A stretch of DNA of 64,000 nucleotides. Origin: Thysanoteuthis rhombus (Eukaryota > Mollusca > Cephalopoda > Oegopsida > Thysanoteuthidae). Where the stretch lies: the NCBI GenBank assembly GCA_963457665.1, contig OY735211.1, positions 38,398,717 to 38,462,716 on the forward strand, given 5' to 3'. Positions 3,790 to 61,775 of this stretch are shown here, in pieces; within the stretch, counting starts at the first letter, position 1, and the number at the start of each line of letters is the position of its first letter. The position numbers and the translations under genes are program-made. Below the pieces are notes generated by a model. It saw only the letters and a program-made list of their open reading frames with translations, was not told the origin of the DNA and searched no databases.

Positions 3790-4144
3790 GATACCGGGGT
3801 TGGCTGGGCACGGGGCAGGTTGAATCACTCACTTTAATTTTTGTTCCCGCCACTAGACGCCACTGTTAGCCTCGTTTTAGGCAGAAAAAAATGGCCGTTT
3901 TTGTTTTTCAAGTATGTATTAACGTACATGTATCAGTTTGTATATGTATTCTCATAGCTGTATGAATTTGTAAATTGTAAATTGTGTGTATATACACATC
4001 TGATAAGTAATGGATATTATGAGTATTGGATATTAGTACCCGACAAGATGAAAGGGAAGATAGTTTTATGAACAAAATTTGCTCAAAGCAAATTATCCAG
4101 GGTAGTGAGCAAAACAAGGGTGATAATCTGAAAATCATCTAAAT

Positions 4145-4236
4145 GAGCCTCGGGTAGGATTTGAATCCTCATTCATTACCATGGGAGCACTGATGTAGCC
4201 TAGGTCTGCGCTAACCGATAGGGCCATCAGACATCT
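4145..4236 (-). mobile_element. tRNA-derived SINE head
   Basis: On the minus strand, GGTTAGCGCAGACC resembles an A box and GGATTCAAATCCT fits a B box, about 45 bases apart, which is tRNA-like spacing. No intact tRNA fold or acceptor stem was seen. I infer a SINE head or tRNA pseudogene. Confidence 0.5.
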
Positions 4237-4410
4237 GAAGGTTGACAGAAGTCGGAATAACACCCTCAACCCATTGGTTCTCTTCTCCAATCGCCGGCCA
4301 GTTTTGTTTATGTGTTCTGTTAGTTTCAGAACAATGGGTTTTCCCGTATTCCAGCGTTTATATTATTGTTCCTTGGTCGACAGTATGTTATCATGTAATG
4401 AATATTATAT

Positions 4411-4470
4411 ATAATCATTCTGTCGGATCATACATCCATTTCTTAAAAACATAATTTTCGCGTTGAAAGA
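4411..4470 (+). mobile_element. SINE family A, 3' fragment
   Basis: Contains the family tail ataatcattctgtcggatca followed by tacatccatttct and a trailing gcgttgaaag. The same tail ends the fuller copies near 4.75, 12.6, 16.25 and 16.5 kb. Only the 3' end is present. Confidence 0.6.
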
Positions 4471-4539
4471 AACAAATAGAGCAGATATAGACCATGAGTT
4501 AGCATTATGGAAATTCAGAGTTATTTTGGCCTTTACATT

Positions 4540-4774
4540 ACAGGCGGCTGTCCAGCTAAATGATAAGACCGACGTTACGTTAAAGCGGCAACCCTATGGG
4601 TCGAAGGTTCGATTCCTGCATAAGCCCCATTTTCTTTAATTGTTTGTTCCATTCACGTTGTCTGGGCCAAATGGTAAATTCAATGTGTAATAACTGGAGA
4701 CCCTTTCAAATAAGAGTTCCTATATAACATAACGCAATTCATAATCATTCTGTCGGATCATATATTCATTTCTA

Positions 4775-4778
<4 letters not shown>
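4540..4778 (+). mobile_element. SINE family A, near full length
   Basis: A tRNA-like head has an A-box-like CAGCTAAATGATAAGACC and a B box GGTTCGATTCCTGC at 4606-4619. A shared body follows (ccccattttctttaattg, then tcaaataagagttcctatat), and the tail attctgtcggatcatatatt runs straight into a (TA)n tract. Copies at 12.2-12.6 kb (two, inverted) and 16.3 kb have the same head, body and tail order. Such elements are moved by the machinery of a partner LINE; which LINE is unknown here. Confidence 0.75.

Positions 4779-4818
<40 letters not shown>
4779..4818. repeat. (TA)n tract at SINE 3' end
   Basis: A TA run begins directly after the SINE tail, so it may be the expanded SINE tail rather than an independent microsatellite. 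Confidence 0.9.
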
Positions 4819-5387: not shown

Positions 5388-5820
5388 AAGGAAAACAGTT
5401 TTAAGTTTTATTCGCTCACTACCTAAAACAATTCAATTTGAGGAAATTTAGATCCTAAAACCGTTATCCATTATTCACATTGTCGGATACTAATATCCAT
5501 ATCCCACCGTACTGTCGACTTAGGAACAATAATATAGGTGTAGAATTACGTGTAAGCCGGTAATTCTGATACTAACGGAACACATGGACAAAACCAGCTA
5601 TCGATTAAGGAAAAGAAGGAATCAGTTAAGGGTATTATTTCGATTCCTGTCCCCCATCCACGTCCCATGACTCAATCAGTTCACAGGCACACATACACAA
5701 TGAGCCCCGTAGGATTCATTTCTTTATTTTCCTGAACATTGCCATTATTATGCTCTGCAAAATCTGGTTCCTAAAACTGACTTTCCCAATTCATATTGTT
5801 GAATACTAATACCCATTACT

Positions 5821-12145: not shown

Positions 12146-12220
<75 letters not shown>
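12146..12220. repeat. (TA)n tract at outer end of inverted SINE pair
   Basis: A pure TA run abuts the 3' end of the minus-strand SINE copy that starts at 12221. Confidence 0.95.
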
Positions 12221-12224
<4 letters not shown>

Positions 12225-12424
12225 TATAAATTGCGTTACATTATATTGAAACTCTATTTGAAATGATCTCCCAATATTTCTCGGTGAATGTGTCATTTAG
12301 CCAAGCAACACAAATGGAATAAACAATCAAAGAAAATAGGGCTACTGCAGGAATCGAACCAGCAATCGATAGGGTATCTGCTTCAATGTAGCGTTGCTCT
12401 TGCCATTTAGCTAAACAGTTGTCG
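12221..12424 (-). mobile_element. SINE family A, inverted copy
   Basis: Read on the minus strand: A-box-like TAGCTAAATGGCAAGAGCA, then gaagcagataccctatcg, B box GGTTCGATTCCTGC, body attttctttgattgttta, then gagatcatttcaaatagagt and a tail ending in TA repeats. It is the mirror partner of the copy that follows. The heads face each other and the tails point outward. Confidence 0.8.
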
Positions 12425-12627
12425 GTAATGTAATGGTAAGACCAATGCTAGGTTGAAGCAGTTACCCTATCGGTCACAGGTTTGATCCCTGCAACAGCCC
12501 CATTTTCTTTGATTGTTTAGGCTTAATGATACACTCACCGTGTAATTACGTGAGATCATTTCAATTAGAGTTTCAATACGATATAATGCAATTTTAAATC
12601 ATTTTTGTCGGATCATATATCCATTTC

Positions 12628-12630
<3 letters not shown>
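12425..12630 (+). mobile_element. SINE family A, direct copy of inverted pair
   Basis: Starts at aatgtaatggtaagacc and continues gttgaagcagttaccctatc, B box GGTTTGATCCCTGC, body ccccattttctttgattg, gagatcatttcaattagagt, and tail tttgtcggatcatatatcca, then TA repeats. It matches the minus-strand partner across nearly its whole length. Confidence 0.8.

Positions 12631-12694
<64 letters not shown>
12631..12694. repeat. (TA)n tract at outer end of inverted SINE pair
   Basis: A TA run directly follows the SINE tail, mirroring the run at 12146-12220. Confidence 0.95.
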
Positions 12695-15239: not shown

Positions 15240-16123
15240 CATTATCATCATCATCACCAGTCTTTTATCGTTAGTCGTTGGACCTACACTTCCCCCAGGA
15301 TTCGCCACACTTCTCTATCGTGGGCGTTGCGAGGCCAATACTTTCTGAATTAGTCCAGTTCGTCTCTCCATTTTCTATTCTGTCGGCTTCGGTTGTGCAT
15401 ATGATCCGTGGGGATCCTTGTTGTGAGTTGGGACGTCCATCGGTTGTCTGCCATTTTCGCAACAAGACCAGCGCATTACCATTTTAGTTTTATAATGGAT
15501 TCTATGATGTCTCAGTCTCCTGTTTTCTCCCTGATATGCAATGTTTTCTTGTGATCTCTCCTTATGAGGTTGTGCATGATTTTTTCATGTGCATGTTGCA
15601 TGCTTCTCAGTTTGTGGGTCGGTCTCTTGGTTAGGTCCCACGTTTCAGCTCCATAGGAGACTATCGGGAGGATGCATTGGTTGTATACCTTTCTTTTTAG
15701 GACTAATGAGATCTTTTTGTTTTTGAAGGTTTGCTCTGCCGAAGGCTTGCCATCCTAGAGTGATTCTTCGCTTGTTATTTTTCTTTTATGAAGACTCGTT
15801 GTCTTCGGTAGATGTAGTGGTCTACTTTCTCAAGTTTTGCGTCTTCAATTTTGATCGTTGTGTTCTTATTTCCGATGTGTTTGTTACACATGACCTTCGT
15901 TTTGCTGGAGTTCATGTGAAGGCAGACTTTTTTACTTCCTTCGGGTAGTTCATCTAACATCAGTTGGAGGTCGTGTAGGTTTTCTTCGAAAAGGGTAATA
16001 GCGTCTGCAAATCTGAGGTTGCACAAATATTTGCCGTCTATTTTGATTCCCTTATTCTCCCAGTCCAGATCATCTTCAGGCAGGCCGTGAAGAGTTTGGG
16101 TGAGCTAGTATCACCTTGTTTTA
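15240..16123 (-). pseudogene. decayed RTE-type LINE, RT C-terminal half and 3' tail
   Basis: Minus strand, read from 16123 downward: KQGDTSSPKLFTACL (family RQGDTISPKLFTACLE), IDGKYLCNLRFADAITLF, where the FADD catalytic box is FADA at 16001-16012, then LHMNSSKTKVMCN, IKIEDAKLEKVDHYIY and, after frameshifts, a C-terminal segment near 15270-15465 resembling the Trp/Arg-rich end of RTE proteins. It finishes in a tgatgatgatgataatga-type 3' repeat (plus-strand 15241-15262), typical of RTE elements. The open frame at 15775-16026 is the longest intact piece. The element is 5' truncated and inactive. Confidence 0.85.
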
Positions 16124-16190
16124 CATATTTTTGGAGCTTGAAGGGCTCAAAGACTTTAATCAACAAGTTTTATTTATATCCACACACATT

Positions 16191-16255
16191 CAAATAGAGT
16201 TTCAAATAATAAAACCCATCCATAATTTTTCTGTCCGATCATGTCTCCATTTCTT
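16191..16255 (+). mobile_element. SINE family A, 3' fragment
   Basis: Contains caaatagagtttcaaataat and the tail ttctgtccgatcatgtctcc, followed by a short TA/GA tract. Only the 3' end of the SINE is present, directly upstream of a fuller copy. Confidence 0.7.
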
Positions 16256-16285
16256 ATTGATGCACATATATATATATAGAGAGAG

Positions 16286-16535
16286 ATATCTCAATATGTT
16301 GAAGCGGTTACCCTATCGGTGGCGGCTTCGATTCCTGTTGTAGCCTTTTTTTCCTTAATCGTTTACTCTATTTATGGTTTCTAAGGTGAGTGATACATTA
16401 ACCGTGTATTAACGGGAGATCATTCCAAATAGGTTTCCGTATAATATAAAGCAAGTTATAATCATCCTGTTGGGTCACATATATCAATTTGTTAATACAT
16501 AACTGTCAAGTTGAAAGGAGCGAGCACTCCGAGGA
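16286..16535 (+). mobile_element. SINE family A, 5'-truncated copy
   Basis: Starts within the head (atgttgaagcggttacccta), has the B box GCTTCGATTCCTG at 16325-16337, then ttccttaatcgtttactcta, gagatcattccaaataggtt and catcctgttgggtcacatat. It extends further than other copies into gttgaaaggagcgagcactc, which may be the complete family 3' end, followed by a short TA run. Confidence 0.75.
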
Positions 16536-16564
16536 TAAATATATATATAGGGGGGGATACTACA

Positions 16565-22190: not shown

Positions 22191-22960
22191 GATTCTCTGT
22201 CAAAGAGAGAAATCCCCAGACAAAGAATTTTTCAGGCAAAATATCTTAAAAAATTTTTTTGGCAAAATATCTCGTCAGGTACTCTAGAAAAAAAAATGAA
22301 ATATCCCTCTATCTGATAAGCCACCCAAAGAAAAAGGAAAATTTACACGAGATATGTCGTTAGCAGCACTAGAAATAAAAACGTATCTTGCAGAATATCT
22401 TGTCACCTACTCCAAGAACAATGAATATTTTTTGCAGGATATCTCGTAAACAGCTCCAGATAAAAGAAATTTCTTGAGAGATATTTCGTTAGCCAATCCA
22501 GCACTAAATAAGTTTCTTGCTAGATATCTTGTCAGTCGCTCAAATTATTCTGTTATTCTGTCAGCTACCAAAGGAAAAAAGAAATTTATTGCCAGACATT
22601 TATTCAGCCGCTTCAGAATTAACAAATTTATTGCGAGATATTTTGTCAGACGCTCCAGAACTAATACATTTATTACGATATATCCGGCTAGCCGCTCATA
22701 AACAAAGACTTCTCTCGCGAGAAATTATGTTAGTCTCTCCAGAACAAAGGAATTTCTTGCGAGAAATTCTATCAACCATTTCCGAAGAAAATTCTTGCAA
22801 ATTATTCTGTCATCCGCTTGAAAACGGGAGTTTGTCAGTCTGTTAGCCACTGCAGAAAAAAATGTTGGGAGATATTCCGTTAGCTGCTCAGAACACATAA
22901 CTTTCTAAAGTGATATTCTGTAAGCTGCTCAAGAACAAAGAAATTTCGTAAGTGATAGTT
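22190..22960. repeat. 45-base minisatellite
   Basis: About 15 degenerate units of 44-47 bases resemble ttcttgcgagatatctcgtc followed by agccgctccagaacaaagaa. Good examples are near 22430, 22475, 22520, 22625, 22670 and 22760. Open frames across it (22474-22701, 22517-22846) contain internal peptide repeats such as LLRDILSDAPELI only because the unit is 45 bases, a multiple of three. Confidence 0.9.
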
Positions 22961-60342: not shown

Positions 60343-61775
60343 AACTGGTAAATTCCGCCACGGTTATTTCCCCCGAGAAAAATTCCCCTGTGCCAAAGCG
60401 AATTTCATCATAGTAAATTTCACTATAGTAAATTTCTCCTCCAAAATTTTTCAGAAATTTCACTACAGTAAATTCGCCCTACAAAATATTACAGAAAATA
60501 AAGACAAAAAAAAGATAAAAATGTAAATCAAAATCTTAATTCTATTTCCGACAATCACAGAAAATGACATTCGAGAATGAAAAAGAAACGATATTCAGTG
60601 ATTTTTTTTGATTTTCCAGTATTGGACCGACGTATACAGTGAAACAGCAAATACTACTAATAATACAAACATTGATTTGTCTCACTATCCAATTACAAGC
60701 CTCAGAACATGACTGTATCATTCCTCACAGCCAAGATATGATTTTTGCTATATTCCAATATATTTTTAAAAGTATATGTGTATATGTAATGCTAGGATAA
60801 TATCCTCATAGTTGGGATGGGAGGGGGCAACATTTTTTGTTAGAAATAGAGGGGGCTAATTTTCATCCCAGTCGATAGGCCATCCCAGCCAGAAATTCAA
60901 TGAGAAGGAGAAATTAGCATCCCCTCTCTCCCTTTCTTTACCTCTTTCGTAAAAAGAAATAAACAACCCCCTCTCTCCCATTCTTTCACTCTATTGTGTG
61001 AATAAATAAACACCCCTTCTTCCCTCTCCTCTTTCACTCTATCGTAAAAAGAAATAAAATTTTCCACTTTCCCTCCCTTTGTTTCACTTTATCGTGAAAA
61101 GAAATAAACATCAACCCCCTTTCACTCTTTCTCTCTCTACCTCTTTCTTTACTCTATCGTAAAAAAAAATTGTTTCATGATAAACAGCTTCGATTTCTGG
61201 CTGGGATGACTTATCGGCTTGGATGGCTACGGTAAGAAGTAACATCGGAAAAAATTATCATGTTCCACAGAACATCCTTTGAAGTATAAAGAAAGCCTAA
61301 ATGCTTTGTTGAACATATTTTCATTGAAAAATGGTGAGATAACATTTTTCATATTCAACCTATAATGTTTTCAGAAATCACGCAGATATATATTACACAC
61401 AAATAATATTGAAATTGGGAGTCGTTCAGTGAATTCCTTCTCTTGAATACCCAAGAAAACAAATTATCGAGGTGGATTGCAGATGAATTAACAAGAAATG
61501 CTCACGAACTATCAAATCAATTGGTAGTGACAATAAAATTTAGTTCAGATAGGAAAACATTTTATTTAATAATATGATTTTTAATGAAAAACTTTGTCTC
61601 CACACAATATTTATATTTTAATTGTTTTTGAGGGGTTTTTGTAATCTTTATTTTAGTGACATTTTGTGGAGGGAATGTACTGCGATAGACTTTACTATGA
61701 TGAAATTTATCTTTGATGGAATTTGCATGGGGTAATTTTCTGCGGGAGGATTTGCCGTGGTAGAATTTACCCGTT
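60343..61775. mobile_element. 1.43-kb element with long terminal inverted repeats
   Basis: The left end (ggtaaattccgccacgg at about 60347, then cgaatttcatcatagtaaat, cactatagtaaatttctcct) matches the reverse complement of the right end (gggtaaattctaccacggca at about 61773 backward, then aaatttcatcatagtaaagt, ttccctccacaaaatg). The similarity runs about 170 bases and includes internal repeats of 'atagtaaattt'. No transposase is encoded, so I infer a non-autonomous DNA transposon. It contains the nested element at 60864-61225. Confidence 0.75.
60864..61225. mobile_element. nested inverted-repeat element with minisatellite core
   Basis: The left arm 60864-60896 (catcccagtcgatagg, ccatcccagccagaaat) and the right arm 61193-61225 reverse-complemented (catccaagccgataag, tcatcccagccagaaat) agree at 29 of 33 positions. 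Between them lie about five units of 47-65 bases with ctctatcgtaaaaagaaata and ccccctctctccc. Non-autonomous transposon carrying a minisatellite inferred. Confidence 0.75.

Follow-up and report, generated by a model that had tools for sequence, protein, structure and literature searches.

The block at positions 12146–12694 of the window, i.e. the whole 64-kb stretch of DNA that was analysed, raises the question of how two copies of one SINE came to lie head to head between two TA tracts, and of what such an arrangement means for the locus. Very probably the pair goes back to two independent insertions, both old, of a dispersed SINE of tRNA origin, opposite in orientation and with their heads together, whose outward 3' ends carried or seeded the (TA)n tails. 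The features on which this reading builds are collected in Table 1.

Table 1. Positions in the 64-kb window of the SINE copies, SINE fragments and simple-repeat tracts; the nhmmer E-values are favoured, the profile having been built from the same four copies and two fragments.
Feature	Positions	Strand	Remarks
(AT)38 tract, perfect	12146–12221		adjoins 3' end of left SINE copy; Tandem Repeats Finder, 100% matches
Left SINE copy (L)	12222–12427	-	head at right-hand end; 3' end stops at start of (AT)n; outer limit placed to within about 10 nt, overlaps R
Right SINE copy (R)	12425–12630	+	degraded or truncated at 5' end; lacks 17 internal nt of L
(AT)32 tract, perfect	12631–12694		adjoins 3' end of right SINE copy; Tandem Repeats Finder, 100% matches
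Third copy of the SINE	4543–4780	+	runs into (AT)n tract 4779–4818
Fourth copy of the SINE, 5'-truncated	16290–16545	+	longer 3' end with AAGGAGCGAGCACTCCG at 16515–16531
Tail-only fragment of the SINE family	16185–16259	+	nhmmer E 8.4e-14
Tail-only fragment of the SINE family	4400–4447	+	nhmmer E 6.1e-9

Alignment of the two arms revealed that they are clearly related, with 138 of 169 ungapped columns identical (81.7%) and another 17 columns taken up by gaps, while BLAST gave 74.2% over 186 columns. When the complete block was aligned to its own reverse complement with the TA tracts masked, the identity was 72.3% over 401 columns. The arm alignment reached a score of 193, a value attained by 0 of 1000 mononucleotide shuffles of one arm (mean 22, maximum 41), and the similarity between L and R is far beyond chance. 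The two copies meet near 12424–12432 with essentially no spacer. The alignment and this junction bear out the first-pass annotation, which had described two inverted copies of one SINE, head to head and almost without spacer; the TA tracts it had placed at both outer ends are there as well and are 100% perfect. Its term near palindrome is overstated for arms that are 81.7% identical in ungapped columns and about 74% with the gap included. The copies had also been called nearly full-length, which is only partly right, R being without 17 nt and degraded or truncated at its 5' end and L stopping 30 nt before R in the alignment of the copies.

When the window was searched with the nhmmer profile, four SINE copies and two tail-only fragments were found (a seventh match, E 0.82, was disregarded), i.e. 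several dispersed, non-coding copies as is typical of a SINE, with pairwise identities among the four copies ranging from 72 to 82% (six pairs). The stretch of 17 nt present in L and missing from R corresponds to 18 nt in the copies at 4543 and 16290. At the 3' end the 16290–16545 copy extends past the end of R, and the fragment at 4400–4500 follows it more loosely; judging from these longer 3' ends both L and R have probably been shortened, and neither of them looks complete. The motif AAGGAGCGAGCACTCCG in the extended part of the 16290–16545 copy has its sole match in the window there, and a stretch of the same copy, GGAGCGAGCACTCC, with a single occurrence in the window, might fold into a short hairpin. 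The tail motif GTCGGATCATATATCCATTTC, kept in R at 12607–12627, was found four times in the window at up to 3 mismatches, while 100 shuffled sequences gave 0.00 on average. A literature text search on three short tail motifs returned no cephalopod paper by title and a motif scan of viral contigs gave 0 matches. At the other end of the element, an ACATTAC stretch is seen upstream of the head of the 4543–4780 copy (4530–4550) and, on the minus strand, upstream of the head of L (12424–12436), in the latter case overlapping with the beginning of R. As the BLAST match carries on across this stretch, the SINE may in fact begin further out at its 5' end than annotated.

The head of L contains both an A-box-like sequence, TAGCTAAATGG, and a B-box, GGTTCGATTCC, each of them a pattern match, while the copy at 4543 matched the B-box pattern only and R and the 16290 copy gave no match to the A- and B-box patterns used, which are consensus forms of the Pol III boxes. 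The head typical of a SINE, resembling a tRNA and bearing both Pol III boxes, is hence seen in L. The Rfam tRNA model scored 19.3 bits on the head of L, under its cut-off of 29 bits, and gave no match on R, and ARAGORN called no tRNA in the 64-kb window. The tRNA origin proposed earlier is thus supported, though weakly. Two other Rfam matches, MIR946 across the hairpin and CRISPR-DR38 in R, were under their cut-offs and were set aside.

Tracts of TA are a common feature of the window, with 31 perfect tracts of at least 12 units totalling 1584 bases, and the 4543–4780 copy likewise enters such a tract. Since the heads of L and R face inward their tails point outward, and these 3' ends may have carried or seeded simple-repeat tails that later grew into the (TA)n tracts. 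Retroelement 3' ends made of simple repeats are reported for RTE elements (PMC2887409) and for RTE-2_OV of octopus (PMC9115989). The likeness lies in a retroelement 3' end that enters simple repeats, and any link of the present SINE to RTE-type retrotransposons with microsatellite 3' ends would be one of analogy. Matches to mir-297, mir-1277, mir-3149 and RUF21 on the TA tracts and their edges were set aside, all being under the Rfam cut-offs.

Concerning the origin of the pair, the four copies were compared in an alignment with 156 ungapped four-row columns. Two-versus-two patterns joined L with R, and the 4543 copy with the 16290 copy, at 2 sites, L with the 16290 copy and R with the 4543 copy at 1 site, and L with the 4543 copy and R with the 16290 copy at 0 sites. 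Sites shared by a single pair numbered 3 for L and R, 3 for L and the 4543 copy, 2 for L and the 16290 copy, 2 for R and the 4543 copy and 1 for R and the 16290 copy. As few sites unite L with R and the four copies are only 72–82% alike, two separate old insertions, landing side by side in opposite orientation so that the heads met, would fit best, although a tree of firm topology would take more than four copies. The K2P divergence is lowest between L and R (0.213, the other five pairs being at 0.253–0.357), a value that would also be compatible with a common origin or with some conversion from arm to arm.

This last result, together with the essentially absent spacer and the 2 sites uniting L with R against 1 and 0 for the other groupings, is what would be expected if a single event, by fold-back synthesis or template switching, had copied one SINE into an inverted duplicate whose arms then diverged. 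We regard this as unlikely, the margins by which L and R are closest being small. Differences between the arms also speak against it: R is without 17–18 nt shared by L, the 4543 copy and the 16290 copy, and the 3' tail motif of R is absent from L. A later deletion in one arm could account for both differences. The surroundings of the block are also asymmetrical, and no inverted similarity was detected between the 151 nt that flank the TA tracts on either outer side (966 of 1000 shuffles scored at least as high); an inverted segmental duplication that extends past the tails was therefore rejected.

A search for target-site duplications was performed on L, R and the 4543 copy and gave none that was convincing when compared to 1000 shuffles each. 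The candidate for R, AGCTAAACA/AGCAAAACA, matches at 8 of 9 positions with a score reached by 136 of 1000 shuffles, and the best candidates for L and for the 4543 copy had scores reached by 754 and 437 of 1000, respectively. The number of such pairs arising from independent insertions was also estimated. With the density of this window (4 copies in 64 kb), orientation at random and an assumed genome size of 2.7 Gb, the chance expectation per genome is about 50 head-to-head junctions within 20 bp. The same random-placement estimate for a single 64-kb window is about 0.001, and the genome-wide figure therefore depends on regarding the pair as one selected from a large genome.

The region 12222–12630 is predicted to fold as RNA with -198.2 kcal/mol and z -20.86, a stability that none of 100 shuffles reached, and with the TA tracts included the predicted energy is -269.1 kcal/mol (z -25.6). 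In the latter fold the tracts pair with one another in the minimum-energy structure while the centroid leaves them unpaired. The ability of the SINE pair to fold, which the first-pass annotation had put forward, is thereby supported as a prediction, and the fold is strong; its duplex of about 200 bp comes down to 145 predicted base pairs between the arms, broken up so that the longest uninterrupted helix is 18 bp. With this energy and this number of pairs the block does offer the long predicted duplex that characterises an ADAR substrate, and a comparable fold would be expected from any inverted repeat of such size. As the heads face inward, Pol III transcripts driven by the SINEs themselves would run apart from each other, and both arms would be found together only in a longer RNA reading through from outside.

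Should such a longer transcript exist, the hairpin would be an ordinary potential substrate for ADAR, as with other inverted SINE pairs. A-to-I editing of the block, which had been suggested earlier, is plausible in principle, because neighbouring inverted repeats are a general substrate for hyper-editing and hyper-editing in octopus is exceptionally high. According to PMC5625713, hyper-editing lies mostly within structures formed by neighbouring inverted repeats, and octopus and a frog have exceptionally high levels of it as well as exceptionally high fractions of loci forming double-stranded RNA. On these grounds, and on account of the stability of the predicted fold, the block might be taken for a functional double-stranded RNA element, its read-through transcript folding and being hyper-edited by ADAR as a selected effect. 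This seems to us very improbable, considering that the arms have drifted to 82% identity, that any inverted SINE pair yields a strong fold, and that a Pfam scan of 10 of the 47 open frames (uninterrupted frames of at least 100 aa) recognised no gene in these, the matches to a reverse transcriptase fragment (E 0.0012) and to two others (E 0.068 and 0.019) all being under the cut-offs. Scarcely to be expected, too, is that the pair is a retained structural element whose strong read-through hairpin undergoes heavy editing and acts on a gene nearby, similar pairs with near-zero spacers being kept in this genome above chance. The block probably has no function specific to this locus. That the TA-SINE-SINE-TA unit is a mobile composite element, for which its symmetry and nothing else speaks, was rejected as having next to no probability, as no direct repeat better than expected by chance was found in the 40 nt beside the TA tracts (699 of 1000 shuffles as high) and the copies at 4543 and 16290 sit outside any such unit.

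Some other features of the window were observed. The weak reverse transcriptase match (RVT_1, under cut-off) belongs to an open frame at 15778–16104 on the minus strand, probably the remnant of a LINE. The open frame at 22508–22957 (+) shows, by eye, a leucine-rich repeating pattern and has a weak HisKA match (E 0.019, under cut-off); 42-bp tandem repeats (22582–22697 and 22871–22957) are located in and just past it. Several tandem repeat arrays with units of 15, 40 and 47 bp were found at 60401–61110. A second pair of inverted repeats lies at 4027–4385 and 5411–5651, with 73–74% identity over 142 and 89 columns and 1.1–1.3 kb between them.

Taken as two independent insertions, the block looks like an ordinary inverted pair of old and diverged SINE copies. 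Both head-to-head SINE pairs and the hyper-editing of inverted repeats, including in octopus, are already published. The locus is an example of how SINE-rich genomes yield inverted pairs by chance, and pairs of this kind provide, in general, the starting material for both double-stranded RNA and A-to-I hyper-editing.

When compared with known systems, the element resembles the tRNA-derived SINEs of octopus, annotated as tRNA-Deu, tRNA-Core and many unclassified (PMC8967140, PMC13282606). Shared with them are Pol III box-like motifs in a tRNA-like head, followed by a body and a short 3' tail motif, as well as the presence of several copies per 64 kb. SINEs are reported to make up about 40% of the transposable elements of octopus (PMC8967140) and 11.6% of the genome of O. 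vulgaris (PMC13282606), the latter figure being of relevance only if the DNA comes from an octopus. Head-to-head SINE copies with short spacers have been described in fish (PMC3292006); these head-to-head and tail-to-tail pairs share with the present one the tRNA-derived copies and the head-to-head orientation but concern another SINE in another host and, in that description, have linkers of variable length, whereas here there is essentially none. Inverted pairs of Alu and other SINEs that form editing substrates (PMC5625713, PMC526178) are likewise SINEs in opposite orientation that can fold as one RNA, the difference being that the arms here are about 82% alike. With inverted Alu repeats at close spacing and with AT-rich palindromic repeats, which are described as fragile DNA (PMC10164571, PMC7999016), the block has in common the near-zero spacer and the AT-rich ends, but its arms are 74–82% alike. 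In yeast double-stranded DNA the instability of inverted repeats is reported to drop with divergence and to be gone once homology is down to 75%, although repeats that divergent are still unstable in long single-stranded DNA (PMC10164571). By analogy, the divergence of the arms may be one reason why the pair has persisted.
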